The translations under genes and the position numbers were made by a program. This document shows, in pieces, positions 24,942 through 32,540 of a stretch of 33,883 nucleotides of DNA. The stretch lies in NCBI GenBank assembly GCA_021816155.1, contig JAKAZA010000027.1, positions 1 to 33,883 on the forward strand. Direction: 5' to 3'. The stretch comes from Pseudomonadota bacterium (GTDB lineage Bacteria; Pseudomonadota; Alphaproteobacteria; Caulobacterales; Caulobacteraceae). Every line of letters starts with the position of its first letter. The first letter of the stretch is position 1. The notes beneath the pieces were generated by a model. That model searched no databases, had not been told where the DNA came from, and saw only the letters and a list, made by a program, of their open reading frames with translations.

Positions 24942-26687
24942 TCAGCCCGTCGGGGTCCGCTCGCCGCGCAGAAGGCCGCCGGGCGTGGCGCCGGTCCAGG
25001 CGCCGTTCTCGAACGTCACCTCGCCCGACTTGACGGTCCACCGGTAGCCGCGGCTCGTTTGCAGGAGGCGCGAGCCGCCGGCCGGCAGGTCATGGACGAT
25101 CTGCGGCGGACTGAGCGCCAGCGCGTCGAGGTCGATCACGTTGAGGTCGGCGAGGTAGCCCGGCGCGATCACGCCGCGGTCGCGCCAGCCCACGTGCTCG
25201 GCGTTGCGCTGGGTGTAGCCGTGCACCAGGGCCTCCACGGACGCCTTCAGCCCAGACTTCGAGCCGCGCGACCAGAGCCCGATCGTGGTGGTCGGGAAGC
25301 TTCCGTCGCAGATCGCGCCGCAGTGCGCGCCGCCGTCGGAGAGGCCGTAGAGCGCGTGCGGGCCCGTCATCATGCCGTAGACGTCGTCCAGGTTGCCGCG
25401 GGCGTAGTTGATGAGCGGCATGTAGATCAGCCGCCGCCCGCCCTCCTCCATCAGCGTATCGTAGACGAGCGCCGCGGCGTCCTTGCCGGCGCGCGCCGCC
25501 TCGGCGCCGAGCGAGGCGGCCTCGGCCGGCTCGTAGTCGACCGGGTCGCTCATGCGGAACATGCGCGCGTAGCCATGGGTGATCAGCGCAGCGAGGCCGC
25601 CCTGCGGGCGGATGCCGTCATGCTCGGCGAGAATGGCGGCCCGCACGGCCGGATCGGCGAGGCGGGCGAGGCGCTCGGCCACGCCGGCGCCGGTCGATAT
25701 CCGGCGGAACGTCGGCGTGATGAAGAACGGATTCGCGCTCGAGGCGAACGACAGCAGGATGCCGATCGGCCGCGGCGCGACCTGGGCGCTGACGGGAAGG
25801 CCGTCAGCGGTCATCGCCTCGATCTCGGCGAAGATCATCTTCCAGCGGTCGGGCGCATCGTCGGTCTGCTGGACGGTGAACGAAAGGCGCCGCCCGCTCG
25901 CCTGCGCGAGGCGCCGGATCAGCGCCAGCTCGGCGCGGGCGAAGTCGTCGTCGGGCGTGAGATAGGCGTCCGAGATAAGCTGGATCACACCCTTGCCGGC
26001 CCGCTTGAGAGCGCCCGCGATCCCCATCAGCTCGGCGTCGCCCGCGGTCAGCGTGCCGATGTTGGCGCCGTCGCGGCTGCGGTGGACGTAGGTGCGCGAG
26101 GTGGAGAAGCCGAGCGCGCCCGCCTCCAGCGCCTCGGCGGTGAGATTGGCCATGCGCTCGATCTCGGCCTCGCTCGGCTGCTCGGTGTGGTCGGCTCCCC
26201 GCTCGCCCATGACGTACGTCCTGAGCGCCGCGTGCGGCAGGTGGGCGCCGATGTCCATGGTGTAGGACCGCCGCCCGAGCGCGTTCAGGTAGTCCGGGAA
26301 GCTCTCCCAGTCCCACGTCAGCCCTTCGGCCAGGGCCGTACCGGGAATGTCCTCGACGCCCTCGAGCAGCGCGATCAGCCAGTCGTGCTTGTCGCCGTGC
26401 GCCGGCGCGAAGCCCACGCCGCAGTTGCCCATCGCGATCGACGTGACGCCGTTGATCGACGAAGGCGCGAGCACGCTGTCCCAGCAGACCTGGCCGTCGT
26501 AGTGGGTGTGGATGTCGACGAAGCCGGGCGTGACGAGCGCGCCGTCGGCGTCGAGCGTGCGCCTGGCCGCGCCGGCGACCTTGCCAACCTCCACGATCCG
26601 CCCGCCGTCGACCGCGACGTCGCCTGCGAACCGAGCCACGCCGGTGCCGTCTGCGATGACCCCGTTCCTGATCACCAAGTCATGCAT
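24942..26687 (-). CDS. N-acyl-D-amino-acid deacylase family amidohydrolase
   Basis: A 581-aa amidohydrolase (Amidohydro_3 family) related to D-aminoacylases and N-acyl-D-glutamate deacylases. It has the N-terminal scaffold [16 protein letters not shown], a metal motif [11 protein letters not shown] (His60 and His62), a GNCGVGFAP loop and a SDGGAHCG metal segment. The C-terminal beta sheet ([14 protein letters not shown]) folds back on the scaffold domain. The ATG at 26687 has GGAGG about 9 nt upstream. It is divergent from the acyl-CoA dehydrogenase across a 168-nt promoter region with palindromes. Many close relatives in catabolic clusters have no known substrate, so D-amino-acid use is only one possibility. 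Confidence 0.86.
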
Positions 26688-26740
26688 GCGCCGATCCTCC
26701 CGTGCGCTGGTTTGCGCCCCATGCAGCGCTCCCGCAAGCG

Positions 26741-26795
26741 TGACGTCAATCGATTCAAACGGTTGTTTGACAGCGCGCGGGCGCCGGGGCAATTT
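26741..26795 (+). promoter_or_regulatory. Divergent promoter with a PsrA-like palindrome over a -35 box
   Basis: Three symmetric elements lie close together: TGACGTCA (26741-26748), AATCGATT (26748-26755) and TCAAAC-GGTT-GTTTGA (26755-26770). The last contains CAAAC-N4-GTTTG, the form of site reported for the fatty-acid-responsive TetR-type repressor PsrA. The consensus -35 TTGACA at 26767-26772 overlaps its right arm, with CAATTT (26790-26795) as a weak -10 after 17 nt. A repressor bound there would block polymerase to the dehydrogenase gene. Confidence 0.5.
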
Positions 26796-26855
26796 GCCCA
26801 AGCTGCGATAGGACGCAGCCGGCGCGTGGGGCGCCCTGAGGAGGAGACGTTCATC

Positions 26856-28133: not shown

Positions 28134-28162
28134 GCGCGAACTCGACCGCGGATCAGACTGAG

Positions 28163-28206
28163 GGCGACCGGCGCGGCCCACGCGGCCGCGCGGTCGCCTC
28201 TTTCTG
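28163..28206 (+). terminator. Rho-independent terminator of the acyl-CoA dehydrogenase
   Basis: A long stem forms from 28163-28178 and 28184-28198 (GGCGACC/GGTCGCC, then GCGCGGCC/GGCCGCGC, with one bulged G), with loop CACGC, directly followed by TCTTTCT. It starts 29 nt after the dehydrogenase stop and isolates that gene from the downstream cyclase cassette. Confidence 0.8.
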
Positions 28207-28296
28207 AAGCGCGGACGCGACACGGCGAGCCGTCTGCAGGACTTGCCTCATACGCCGGGGCTGGTCGTCCGGTGCGGCTTTCGCCTAGTAGGCGTA

Positions 28297-30228
28297 ATGA
28301 GCGGCGTGTTCGGCATCCTGCGCCTCGACGGCGGCGCAGTCGAGGAAAGCGACCTCCGGCGGCTGGCCGATGCGATGGCGCATCGCGGGCCGGACGGGCG
28401 GGAGTTCGCCACGGCGGGTGCTGTCGGCCTCGGGCATTGCCTGATGCGCTTGACGCGCGAAGACGCATTCGAGGCGCAGCCGCTCTTCGACGACGAGCTG
28501 ATCCTCGTCGCGGACGCCAGACTGGACAATCGCGCCGAGCTGGCCGACGCGCTCGGCATTCCCGCCCGGACGCTGGGCCAGACGCCGGACAGCGCCCTGA
28601 TCCTCGCCGCCTACAAGGCCTGGGGCGAGCACTTCGCCGAGCGCCTGCTGGGCGACTTCGCTGTCGCGGTCTGGGACGGCGCAGCGAAGAAGCTGGTGCT
28701 GGCGCGCGACCACATGGGTCAGCGCGGACTGCTCTTCCATCGCGACGAGCGCCGCTTCATCTTCGCATCCGACCGCGCGGCGCTTTGGAAGCATCCGGAC
28801 GTGCCGCAGACGCCGCTGGACGACGCCGCCATCGGCCGGCTGCTGATTCACGACCTCACCATTTGAGACGACAGCGCCGCCCTCGGCCGGATCACCGGCT
28901 TCGGCGCGGGCAGCGTGCTGACCGTCGGTGCGGACGGCGCTTTCGCCGTTCGACGCTACTGGTCGCCGCGCGCCGACCCGGTTCATGAGGGCAGGGACGA
29001 GGCCTACTACGTCGCCGCCTACCGCCGCGTGCTCGGCGAGGCGGTCGCCTGCCGCCTCGCCCGGCTCACCGCACCGCCGGGCCTGATCTTCAGCGGCGGC
29101 TACGACAGCGGCGGCATCGCGGCTTTGGCCGGAAGCACGCCCGTCCCCGGCGGCAAGCTGATCGCCGCGGCGTCGGTCATGCCGGCGGATTATCGTGGCG
29201 ACATCCGCCACGCGCGCCATTGGGTGGAGCTCTGCGCGCGCCACATGCCCTGGCTCGACGTGCGCTACGTCACCCGCCAGGGCAAGAGCATCCTCACCGG
29301 TCTCCAACGGCGCTTCATCGAGCGGGGCGCGCCCGTGGGCGCATACCACTTCGTGCAGCACGAGCTGCTCGCGAGCCTTGCCGCCGCAGGCGCGCGCCTG
29401 ATCATGGACGGACATGGCGGCGACTACACGCTGAACCCGCGCGGCCAGGCGGCGCTGGCGCGGCATCTGGCGAAGGGCCAGCTCCGACGCTTCCTGAAGG
29501 AGCTGCCCGCCCACCGGCGGCTCGGGACCCACCGCTCATGGTGGGCGCTGATCAAGCTGGACGTCGCAGTCATGCTGGCGCCGGCCTGGGCCCTGAAGCT
29601 CTGGCGGCGCATCCGCCGCGGCCCCGCGCCGGTCTGGGCCGACCAGCCGATCGCCGAGCCTTTCGCCCGGGAATTAATGGCCAGGGGCGAGATCGACCCC
29701 CGCAACCTGCGGCTCAGCGTTCAGCGCGAAACCGAAATGCGCGCGCGACTGCGCGAGGCGCTGGAGCTCGTCGCCGCCGCGCCCGGTCCGGGCATCGGCG
29801 CCGAGGCGGTGGAGCACGGCCTCGACCTCACGCGGCCGTTCCACGACAAGCGCGTGGTGGAGCTGGCGCTCGCCATCCCCGAAGACCTCTACGTGAAGCA
29901 CGGCCGCAACCGCTATCTCGCCTGCCTGGCGCTGAAGGACCTCTATCCGCCGGAGTTCCAGACCCGCTGGCGCATGAACGACGACGAGATCCCCGACTTC
30001 CAGCGCATGGCCAAGTCCATCGAGCCGCAGATGTTGGAGGACCTGGCCCGCATGGAGCAATCGCCCATGCTCGCCCGCTACATCGACTTCGGCAAAATCC
30101 GCAGGCTGCTCGCCGCACGGCCAACCGCCGACGACCACAACTCAGGCTGGGAGCAGGAGACGCAGCTGGCGCTCGGCGGCTATCTCGCCGCCCGCTACAT
30201 CGAATGGGCGCGGCGGGATAATCGCTAG
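28297..30228 (+). pseudogene. Asparagine-synthetase-like (lasso-cyclase type) protein with in-frame stop
   Basis: One continuous frame of 644 codons is interrupted only by TGA at codon 190 (28864-28866). Sequence on both sides is protein-like and family-typical. The N-terminal domain is a glutaminase-like fold (MSGVFGILRLDG, AHRGPDG, LARDHMGQRGLLF) but lacks the usual Cys after the start Met, so it cannot use glutamine that way. The C-terminal domain has the ATP-pyrophosphatase loop FSGGYDSGG (residues 265-273) and a GHGGDYTLNP segment. This Cys-less AsnB form is the type that makes the isopeptide bond in lasso-peptide clusters. With the TGA read as a stop, only the inactive N-terminal domain would be made; the C-terminal half could start at GTG 28915. 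A small CGCCTA-G-TAGGCG hairpin (28282-28294) precedes the ATG. Confidence 0.82.
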
Positions 30229-30443
30229 AGCGCTTGGCGCGCGGGCCGAACGCGGCCACCACTGCGCTGTCGACATGCCCGGACCCGGCCCCCGCTCGCT
30301 GCGCATGGCGGGGTGGGCTGAGGCGGGACACCGCGCCGCAAGCGAGCGATTCTGGATTTCTGCATGGCTAGGCTTTTACCTTTCCCGGCGCAGCGGCTAA
30401 GTTGTCGGAGATCGGGACACGAGGAAAGAGACGCGGGCGGGCC
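30229..30443 (+). other. Intergenic region with possible short peptide ORFs
   Basis: This 215-nt gap inside the cassette is where a precursor peptide gene could sit. A 41-codon ORF runs from ATG 30275 to TAA 30400 and ends in an aromatic stretch (ERFWISAWLGFYLSRRSG). A 45-codon frame starts at TTG 30235 and ends at 30372. Neither has a good ribosome site, nor the Thr before the core and ring acid expected of a lasso precursor. Small GGCCG/CGGCC symmetry at 30244-30257 is the only hairpin. The 3' part is AT-richer and may hold the promoter of the PqqD-like gene. Confidence 0.3.
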
Positions 30444-30719
30444 TTGAGCACATTTTTGCACCATAATGACAAGATTATCGGCGCGCCAGTGGGTGAAGAC
30501 GATCTCGTGATGCTCAGCGTTGAGACCGGTTGCTACTTCAGCACCAACGTCGTTGGCCGGAGACTATGGGAGTTGCTGGAAACACCCAGAACTATACCCG
30601 ATTTGCGGCAGGCGGTCTGCGCCGAATTTGATATCGACGAAGCGACCTGCGAGGCCGACATCGTCGACTTCGTGCGTGAGCTGATGGGCAATGGCCTGAT
30701 CCAGTCCGTGGAGGCGTAG
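30444..30719 (+). CDS. PqqD-like peptide-binding protein (RiPP recognition element)
   Basis: A 91-aa PqqD-family protein, the winged-helix fold that binds leader peptides of ribosomally made, modified peptides (B1 in lasso clusters). It has VMLSVETGCYFSTNVVGRRLWELLE, then a DLRQAVCAEFDIDEATCEADIVDFVRELMGNGLIQ helix pair, the normal order and length. The start is not certain: TTG at 30444 gives a family-like length and has GGAAAGAG at 30423-30430, while TTG at 30402 would add 14 basic residues of no clear value. The gene is visibly less GC-rich than its neighbours. It stands between the cyclase-like gene and the kinase gene, so I infer that it presents a peptide to these enzymes. A free-standing PqqD protein for another substrate is possible. 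Confidence 0.8.
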   Translation: MSTFLHHNDKIIGAPVGEDDLVMLSVETGCYFSTNVVGRRLWELLETPRTIPDLRQAVCAEFDIDEATCEADIVDFVRELMGNGLIQSVEA

Positions 30720-30762
30720 GCATGGTGGAGGCGGCCAGCAGAGCCCGACGCGCTTGAACGGG

Positions 30763-31674
30763 ATGGCGTACAGCTACCGCATAAGCGGGCTCACGGTCGC
30801 TTGCGACTTTCCCTTGGCTGGCGCGGTCGCGACGGAGCCCGCCGTAACGCCGGACGTGCGCGTACGGCTGGCGGACGTACCGCAGACGCTGGAAGGCGGC
30901 GCGGCGCTCGGACCCAATTGGGACATGTTCGGCGAGGATTTCCTGCTGAGGGCGCCCCGGCTGGCGCGATTCCTGATCCGCGGCGGGCGCGAAATCGTCA
31001 TCGCGCTGGAAGACGGCGCCACCGCCCGCGACGCCAGCGCCTACGTGCTGGGCACCGCCTTCGGCATCCTCCTGCACCAGCGCGGCGCCCTGGTGCTTCA
31101 CGGTGCGGCGGTGGCGCGCGGCGGCGAGGCGATCGCGATCTGCGGTCATTCAGGCGCCGGCAAGTCCACCCTCGCCGCAGCGCTCTGCCGCCGGGGTTGG
31201 GCGTTGGTCACCGACGATCTCTGTGCGCTCAGCCCCGGCGACGACGGACGCCCGGTCATCCGGCCGGACGGCCGGCAGCTGAAACTATGGCAGGAGGCGG
31301 TCGAGGCGCTGGACCTCGGCGAGCAGCGCGGCGAAGCGGTGCTCGCTAGGTTCGAGAAGTACTTTGTCGCGCCGGCCGAGGTCGCCACCGAGGCCACGCC
31401 CCTGCGGGCGATCTACGTGCTTCGCGAATCGCGTCCGCCGCTGACCGACGGGATCGAGCCCCTGCCGTTGCCCGACGCGATGCACATGCTGGACCGCGAA
31501 GCCTACCGGCCTGGGTTACGGCTGAAGATGGGCGTGCGGCCCGAGCTGGTGGCCCAGAGCGCCGGCATGCTGGCGCACGTGCGGATGTTCGAGCTCACCC
31601 GGCCGCGCGACCTCGCCAGGCTTCCCGAGACCGTCGAGGCGCTGCTGGCCCACTGGGAACTGGCGGCGGCGTGA
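30763..31674 (+). CDS. HPr-kinase-like kinase (HprK-related)
   Basis: A 303-aa protein with the C-terminal HPr kinase/phosphorylase fold. It contains the P-loop GHSGAGKSTL (residues 128-137), the LHGAAV strand and the DD motif of VTDDLCAL (151-152), which coordinates the metal and the Ser hydroxyl. The first about 100 residues differ from classical HprK. Families of this kind sit next to PqqD-like proteins; in some lasso clusters an HprK-like kinase phosphorylates the peptide's C-terminal Ser. The ATG at 30763 gives the typical opening MAYSYRISGLTVACDFPL; TTG 30754 is the alternative and neither has a clear ribosome site. The stop overlaps the sulfotransferase start by 4 nt (GTGA). Confidence 0.82.
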   Translation: MAYSYRISGLTVACDFPLAGAVATEPAVTPDVRVRLADVPQTLEGGAALGPNWDMFGEDFLLRAPRLARFLIRGGREIVIALEDGATARDASAYVLGTAFGILLHQRGALVLHGAAVARGGEAIAICGHSGAGKSTLAAALCRRGWALVTDDLCALSPGDDGRPVIRPDGRQLKLWQEAVEALDLGEQRGEAVLARFEKYFVAPAEVATEATPLRAIYVLRESRPPLTDGIEPLPLPDAMHMLDREAYRPGLRLKMGVRPELVAQSAGMLAHVRMFELTRPRDLARLPETVEALLAHWELAAA

Positions 31675-32540
31675 CCGGCTCGGCCGCGATAATCTGGCTG
31701 GCCTCCTTCCCGAAGTCGGGCAACACTTGGTTCCGGATCTTCCTCGCCAACCTCGCCGCCGGCGAGAACGGCCCGGCCGACATCAACGATCTGGACGAGC
31801 GCGGCGGCATTGCCAGCAGCCGCCACGAGTTCGAGGCTGCCACCCAGCTCGACTCCGGCTTCGTCGGCCACGACGACATCGATGAGCTGCGCCGCGATGT
31901 CTACCACCGCATCGCAGCCGAGGTGGATCACCAGCGTTGGATCAAGACCCACGACGCCTATGTCATGACGCCGAGCGGAAGGCCGATGTTCGGCGTAGCG
32001 GGGACCCGGGCCGTGTATCTCGTCCGCGACCCGCGCGACGTGGCGGTCTCGTTCGCGCACCACAGCAGCACCACGGTCGACAGGGCCATCGAGCTGCTGA
32101 ACCGGGAGGATGGCGCGCTGTGCGCCAGCCGCACGGCCCTCGCGCCGCAACTGCGACAGAAGCTGCTCGGCTGGAGCGGCCACGCGGCCAGCTGGCTTGA
32201 TCAGTCCGACCTGCCGGCCATCCTGCTGCGCTACGAGGACATGAGGGCCGCCCCCGAGGCGCGCTTCGCCGCCGCCCTCGCCTTCGCGGGCAGAGACGCG
32301 ACGCCCGACGAGATCGCCCGCGCCGTCCGCCACGCCGACTTCAGCGAGCTGCGGCGCCAGGAAAGCGAGAAGGGCTTCGCCGAGCGCATGTCCCGAACCG
32401 CGCCATTCTTCCGCTCGGGTCAGGTCGGCGGCTGGCGGGCCGCGCTCACCGCGGAGCAGGTCGCTCGCATAGAAGAGGCGCATGCGCCGATGATGCGGCG
32501 ACTGGGCTACGAGCTGTCAGCGCCGCCGCACGAGCGCTGA
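31671..32540 (+). CDS. Sulfotransferase (PAPS-dependent)
   Basis: A 289-aa cytosolic-type sulfotransferase that moves sulfate from PAPS to a hydroxyl or amine. The 5'-phosphosulfate loop is ASFPKSGNTWFR (11-22), the catalytic His is probably His94 in IKTHDA, and the 3'-phosphate motif is YLVRDPRDVAVSF (116-128). Near the C-terminus, RSGQVGGWRAALT is the usual PAPS-binding GxxGxWR-like turn. The GTG start overlaps the kinase stop codon, so kinase and sulfotransferase are translated together. With the PqqD-like protein and cyclase it may modify the same peptide or small molecule. Sulfotransferases are promiscuous, so the substrate is open. Confidence 0.88.
   Translation: MTGSAAIIWLASFPKSGNTWFRIFLANLAAGENGPADINDLDERGGIASSRHEFEAATQLDSGFVGHDDIDELRRDVYHRIAAEVDHQRWIKTHDAYVMTPSGRPMFGVAGTRAVYLVRDPRDVAVSFAHHSSTTVDRAIELLNREDGALCASRTALAPQLRQKLLGWSGHAASWLDQSDLPAILLRYEDMRAAPEARFAAALAFAGRDATPDEIARAVRHADFSELRRQESEKGFAERMSRTAPFFRSGQVGGWRAALTAEQVARIEEAHAPMMRRLGYELSAPPHER

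Follow-up and report, generated by a model that had tools for sequence, protein, structure and literature searches.

A candidate lasso-peptide cassette that joins an HprK-like kinase to a sulfotransferase in a member of the Caulobacteraceae

We describe a four-gene cassette in a 33,883-nucleotide stretch of DNA (the window), which is the whole of contig C37 (GenBank JAKAZA010000027.1) of a draft genome (3.6 Mb, 188 contigs) from a member of the Caulobacteraceae (assembly GCA_021816155.1). The cassette encodes, on the plus strand and in this order, a lasso-type cyclase, a PqqD-like protein, an HPr-kinase-like (HprK-like) kinase and a sulfotransferase; the open reading frames (ORFs) of kinase and sulfotransferase share an overlap of 4 nt. 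The cassette probably provides core as well as tailoring enzymes for a lasso-peptide pathway of what we term the kinase-sulfotransferase (K-S) type, the precursors and leader peptidase (B2) of which would be encoded elsewhere in the genome. Order, strand and overlap, which a first-pass annotation had read from the sequence, are borne out by the ORFs and by family matches; its proposal of a lasso-type cassette for a ribosomally synthesized and post-translationally modified peptide (RiPP) with two tailoring enzymes finds support in the same matches and in related K-S loci that carry precursor genes.

Kinase-sulfotransferase pairs and precursor genes in relatives

The PqqD-like protein matches PF05402 above its cut-off (E 3e-18) and the lasso PqqD family NF033536 with E 4e-16 (59 bits vs 80 required), and among solved structures TbiB1 is nearest (E 3.5e-15), which identifies it as a PqqD-like B1 protein of a lasso system; a genome-wide PqqD search at E<=0.001 returned it as the sole match. 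The kinase was assigned through HprK_rel_A (TIGR04352, E 5e-14, 52.1 bits vs a cut-off of 200) and Pfam Hpr_kinase_C (28.2 bits, under the cut-off of 33.3), and it retains in alignment A1 the His-Lys-Asp-Asp residues that form the lasso kinase motif (PMC9266682). Its structural model (predicted local distance difference test score, pLDDT, 94.5) is matched best by phosphoenolpyruvate carboxykinases, with HprK appearing from rank 32, whereas HprK comes first in the ranking by sequence. The sulfotransferase belongs to Sulfotransfer_1 (PF00685, E 2e-25, 90.4 bits vs a gathering cut-off of 22), and its residues K15, S16, G17, T19, W20, H94, R119, S127, R248 and G250 are invariant in the six proteins of alignment A2, R248 being only nearly invariant among 20 proteins. 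We take its PKSGNTW-type motifs to be the sites for 3'-phosphoadenosine 5'-phosphosulfate (PAPS) and for catalysis. The best fold match of its model (pLDDT 92.0) is Teg12 with teicoplanin aglycone. A collection scan with P0002 gave no match, and a second scan gave four weak relatives.

Within the class, relatives of the sulfotransferase at E<=1e-20 occur in 89 of 385 genomes. We fetched 40 regions around such relatives, some picked for their rank and others for their genome, and found HprK directly upstream in 22 and none in 18; 16 of these 22 were among the first 20 fetched, which were mostly top-ranked. Anchoring the class search on the kinase instead (E<=1e-15) yielded 39 places, the window included, in 20 of 372 genomes, and a sulfotransferase lies directly downstream of the kinase in 20 of the 29 loci examined out of the 38 places other than the window. 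A phylum-wide sample contained kinase relatives in 28 of 398 genomes, with the sulfotransferase directly after the kinase in nine of 23 further loci, seven of the nine lying outside the class, in four genera. The gap rule left L164 out of the pair table, and L188 fell out of the class count for a similar reason, although both look like K-S pairs; L245, where the sulfotransferase stands upstream of the kinase, was excluded from the phylum count; several pairs and loci of class and phylum come from near relatives, so that the counts overstate independence.

The pairs are linked to the other genes of a lasso pathway. Among 33 K-S pairs drawn from 49 loci, PqqD was present within 6 kb in 26, a cyclase in 23 and B2 in 11 (the ORF caller uses the earliest start, and gaps in this tally are approximate). 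For the 23 pairs having both PqqD and cyclase, the other ten being dropped, kinase distances correlate most strongly with sulfotransferase distances (Mantel r 0.86), followed by those of PqqD (0.77) and cyclase (0.58). It is conceivable that kinase and sulfotransferase modify a polysaccharide or a small molecule and are neighbours of lasso genes by coincidence. The sulfotransferase belongs to a broad family, many of the 18 fetched regions without HprK hold tandem sulfotransferases, and homologues from the window's own family (G096 twice, G107; 30–39% alike) have no lasso genes around them. Such an origin would, however, leave unexplained the repeated adjacency of the two genes, often with a 4-nt overlap, their co-divergence and their association with PqqD, cyclase and precursors that end in Ser, and we consider it very improbable.

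For precursors we scanned for a leader with [WY]xxPx[LIVMFA], a Thr and an acidic residue at ring distance, leaving the last residue free. The first-pass annotation had staked its peptide reading on a short peptide gene being present beside homologous cassettes, and 16 of 21 K-S loci do have one or more precursor-like ORFs no further than 700 nt from the enzyme genes, 19 in all, every one ending in Ser. Beyond 700 nt there were 12 more, nine of them Ser-ended, which gives 31 matches in 340 kb of K-S loci with 28 ending in Ser; control loci with a sulfotransferase and no kinase (18 loci, 250 kb) held two such ORFs, neither Ser-ended. With the ring filter off the contrast is weaker, Ser-ended leader-only matches numbering 39 of 103 in K-S loci vs six of 43 in controls. 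An earlier scan required Ser and was not used for the statement on Ser ends; some cluster precursors, e.g. that of G488, do not show the Thr pattern and came up only in that scan. The resulting list of 33 cores (28 from relatives and five from the window's own genome) holds only Ser-ended sequences with the Thr-acid pattern, their starts deduced from a T-x rule, and it drops the three non-Ser matches and the pattern-less precursors of L144, L181, L103 and L091. The aromatic residue of the leader motif is Tyr in all five own precursors and Trp in 25 of the 28 others listed; in Bacillota this Trp/Tyr residue steers the choice of RiPP recognition element (RRE) (PMC13381572).

Some of these loci have a composition of their own. 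In one genome, 20 kb contain three precursor genes along with as many kinase-sulfotransferase pairs (L145:671-19999), and in the G488 cluster a further sulfotransferase, of another type (Sulfotransfer_3), separates B2 from PqqD (L144:9652-10887). Three genes stand in a row on the Tistrella plasmid pTM1, a kinase, a sulfotransferase and a nucleotidyltransferase (NTP_transf_6) (L110:7138-9745); the 17 kb read there has neither PqqD nor cyclase, and a cyclase-kinase-PqqD set is found elsewhere on the plasmid. Proteins with a Phage tail collar domain adjoin three lasso clusters (L144:14686-15222, L091:11755-12306, L104:13015-13557), each with a GNAT acetyltransferase gene next to the tail collar gene, recognized by Pfam in L144, by annotation in L104 and only by eye in L091.

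Leader peptidase and precursor candidates on other contigs

The first-pass annotation had remarked on the lack of a B2 peptidase and of a clear precursor, and this holds for the window: leader-motif scans, whether or not the Ser and ring filters were applied, found no precursor-like ORF in it, and a genome-wide search for the B2 family (PF13471) found a single protein, on contig C122. Loose leader-motif matches in the window were rejected, as they lie inside known genes or in unlikely frames. B2 and precursor are likely missing from the window because they are scattered over other contigs.

The C122 B2 gene lies beside a Coq4-type gene and ahead of a TIR-domain gene that is truncated at the contig end (L041:15246-16358). 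When compared with 22 matching B2-type proteins, its best four matches all come from K-S loci, namely G488 (L144; 45% over 154 aa) and then L181, L164 and L145. G488 also resembles the cassette itself, with 46% identity for the kinase, 46% for the sulfotransferase, and 48% and 39% for the N and C halves of the cyclase. The C122 protein may therefore be the partner of the window's cassette, as far as sequence similarity can tell.

Five candidate precursor genes were recognized in the genome, two each on contigs C58 and C136 and one on C187; a profile made from sequences of other genomes retrieved three (E 4e-4, 1.4e-3 and 0.013), the motif scan added two, and a profile of all five found no sixth in the genome (next E 0.47). 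They share an RR[PQ]YxxPxL leader, a T-x-K, an acidic residue 7–8 positions past the presumed cleavage site, and a GPS or GPPS end, hence -Pro-Ser in five of five, and are candidate substrates of the window's kinase. The C136 and C187 precursors are repeats of 84–87% identity with near-identical leaders and varied cores. On C58 the two precursors face each other, each behind a degraded 3' end of a window-like cyclase, an arrangement suggestive of the copying of cyclase-precursor ends to another place. Amidohydrolase-like genes (N-acyl-D-amino-acid deacylase type, by eye) were seen in two of these surroundings, one near the cassette at 24942-26800 (minus strand) and a similar one adjoining the precursor repeats on C136 (L230:1441-3006, minus strand).

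The interrupted cyclase and the layout of the cassette

Several observations weigh against the proposed pathway. Its parts are spread over five contigs, and every NCBIfam score of the cassette proteins is under the curated cut-off. In the window's own order a sulfotransferase stands beside the kinase in only three of 25 HprK loci, the genus included, and in the genus itself in none of five. Of the 33 K-S pairs, seven have neither PqqD nor cyclase within 6 kb, and these seven come from Tistrella-like genomes. The acceptor of the sulfate is another difficulty: Tyr is absent from 24 of the 33 cores, and in nine of them the last residue is the only Ser, Thr or Tyr of the tail. The related Bradymonas kinase BsfK acts on Ser3 in the ring, aided by B1 (PMC10368454), and our searches of open-licence literature found no report of a sulfated lasso peptide, so that in the papers covered the sulfotransferase step is without direct precedent. 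Finally, a TGA codon at 28864-28866 splits the cyclase into an N-terminal domain of 189 aa and a synthetase domain of 453 aa in one frame.

The cyclase frame (28297-30228) begins MSGVFG..., is Cys-less and resembles AsnB and lasso cyclases. Both halves match the lasso cyclase family NF033535, the N half with 193.8 bits (E 5e-57) and the C half with 87.5 bits (E 7e-25; cut-off 525), and Pfam GATase and Asn_synthase are matched above cut-off; the SGGxDS motif of the synthetase domain is presumably the ATP site. The Cys-less AsnB-like protein of the first-pass annotation was thus right as to family, but it is not one open frame in this assembly. Downstream of the TGA 453 codons are open, with no frameshift and with the codon-position composition of a gene, and the stop may therefore be recent, an assembly error, or the mark of a gene split into two chains; on which of these applies the function of the pathway may hinge.

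Because of this stop, which the first-pass annotation had not noticed when it named a relic as an alternative, the cassette could also be what is left of a pathway lost only recently from the strain: the nonsense codon would have removed the cyclase, and the other parts would be scattered leftovers. Two truncated cyclase ends, which lie on C58 close to what looks by eye like a transposase gene, would fit such a decay, as would the closest kinase relative, that of G480 (56% identical), whose sulfotransferase lacks an internal stretch (L161:7438-8082). On the other side stand the open frames of PqqD, HprK, sulfotransferase, B2 and all five precursors, the retained key residues of kinase and sulfotransferase, the intact coding character of the cyclase past the TGA, and the near-identical leaders and varied cores of the C136 and C187 precursors, a pattern like that of maintained families. 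We therefore hold a relic to be unlikely, though it deserves serious consideration.

Alternatively, the cyclase might be dispensable or work as two chains, a GTG at 28915 being a possible start of the second, and the product might be a linear phospho- or sulfo-peptide. The clusters for linear polyphosphorylated peptides (LPP) of Bacillota run an RRE and HprK without cyclase (PMC13381572), and the seven Tistrella-like pairs would fit a linear product too. Yet a cyclase is near most of the K-S pairs, and the own precursors carry their acidic residue where a lasso ring needs it, so that a linear or split-enzyme system appears improbable to us.

As to the origin of the cassette, in the window's genus the clusters that hold kinase relatives also contain a short peptide gene along with PqqD, cyclase and B2 (in four genomes; in a fifth the cluster is split over two contigs). 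That the K-S pair is common in class and phylum and rare among the window's nearest kin fits acquisition of the cassette by transfer into this genome. A search for an empty site by synteny found the left-flank gene in ten of 16 genus genomes, the own genome included, and the right-flank gene within 1.5 kb in no fetched locus.

Coordinates are collected in Table 1. The first-pass annotation had placed a strong terminator before the cassette. Folding supports it, with -42.5 kcal/mol for 28150-28212 and a z of -5.3 vs shuffles; a simple terminator pattern scan does not, as it found two vs 1.6 expected from shuffles, that is no excess, and we do not count the terminator as a significant feature.

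Table 1. Features of the cassette and its immediate surroundings in the window
Feature	Position	Strand	Basis or remark
GC-rich strong hairpin, then short T-rich stretch, 5' of the cassette	28160..28206	+	folding
Cyclase N-terminal domain, Cys-less, glutaminase-like	28297..28866	+	NF033535; ends at in-frame TGA
Cyclase synthetase domain, same frame past the TGA	28867..30228	+	NF033535; SGGxDS; coding-type codon composition
Cyclase 3' end, with two degraded copies on C58 beside two precursor genes	30145..30227	+	83 nt at 92%, 77 nt at 88%
Gap between cyclase and PqqD	30229..30401	.	precursor-like ORF not found on either strand
PqqD-like B1 leader-binding protein (RRE)	30402..30719	+	family matches; TbiB1 nearest solved structure
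HprK-like lasso kinase (K)	30754..31674	+	His116, Lys137, Asp154, Asp155 retained
Sulfotransferase of PAPS-dependent type (S)	31671..32540	+	PKSGNTW, KTH, FFRSG motifs retained

Proposed pathway and comparison with known systems

In the pathway that we favour, the PqqD-like B1 protein would bind the precursors with YxxPxL leader and -Pro-Ser end encoded on the other contigs, and the HprK-like kinase would phosphorylate them, most likely on the C-terminal serine, the residue on which lasso HprK kinases of paeninodin and Sphingobium act in the linear precursor (PMC8498205, PMC9266682). The sulfotransferase, made together with the kinase, would add sulfate before leader removal; the stand-alone B2 would then cut off the leader and the cyclase would close the ring. 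From gene content and conservation we infer that these scattered parts cooperate, that both reactions take place in the sequence given, and that a single peptide is the target of both; on this reading, some lasso peptides may bear phosphate together with sulfate.

With regard to the sulfate acceptor, Tyr sulfation is weakened by the many cores without Tyr, and one fixed inner Ser or Thr was not found among the 33 cores. No hydroxyl residue type besides the last Ser is common to all of them, which fits, without showing it, a convergence of both enzymes on the C-terminal Ser. It is tempting to speculate whether this could yield a phospho-sulfo ester on the hydroxyl or a doubly activated leaving-group handle, a long shot in our estimation, as is its leaving-group version, e.g. 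a decarboxylative elimination to a C-terminal enamide. Either a phospho-sulfo ester or a Ser leaving-group handle would, to our knowledge, be a new peptide modification.

If the proposed pathway is true, widespread proteobacterial lasso peptides carry phosphate and sulfate through a recurrent enzyme pair, and the K-S loci supply kinase-sulfotransferase-precursor triples that can be tested. With precursors, leader peptidase and cyclase lying apart, cluster-based mining could miss a lasso pathway of this kind.

The solved proteins nearest to the sulfotransferase are glycopeptide sulfotransferases of the Teg12, Teg14 and StaL group, Teg12 and Teg14 ranking best by profile search and Teg12 by fold. 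These enzymes presumably act on non-ribosomal glycopeptides (partly from entry titles), and the window's protein is only about 20% identical to them.

Closely comparable are the phosphorylated lasso systems of Proteobacteria and Firmicutes, with SyanK and with PadeK/ThcoK (paeninodin), which combine a PqqD-like B1, B2, a cyclase and an HprK-like kinase of His-Lys-Asp-Asp type with a Ser-ended precursor having a W/YxxPxL leader; the window's genome has counterparts of these, those of B2 and precursor being candidates. Unlike them, the window couples a sulfotransferase to the kinase, has its B2 and precursors outside the cluster and has an interrupted cyclase frame. In pseudomycoidin and bsf, too, a second tailoring enzyme, a nucleotidyltransferase, is paired with an HprK-like kinase, but pseudomycoidin involves a hexose added onto phospho-Ser and BsfK acts on ring Ser3, and the accessible text on these systems names no sulfotransferase. 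The Bacillota LPP clusters share with the cassette an RRE and an HprK-like kinase, which there acts on a precursor with a YxxP leader, and differ in using a signal-peptidase-like protease, no cyclase and phosphorylation of Ser3 (PMC13381572).

Our searches of open-licence literature found no account of the proteobacterial K-S pair. The combination as such is not new, since genes for an HPr kinase and for a sulfotransferase, tailoring enzymes of the kinds present in the window, have been reported in some Gram-positive lasso clusters, with no role assigned to them in the accessible text (PMC4289311, 2014; PMC8498205 citing Zhu 2016). In the clusters of Zhu 2016, as cited in PMC8498205, the gene stands at the cluster start, whereas here the sulfotransferase directly follows the kinase, and does so in many Proteobacteria. 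Kinase and sulfotransferase genes in lasso clusters are thus already known from Gram-positive bacteria, and the proteobacterial K-S pair adds a variant to them.

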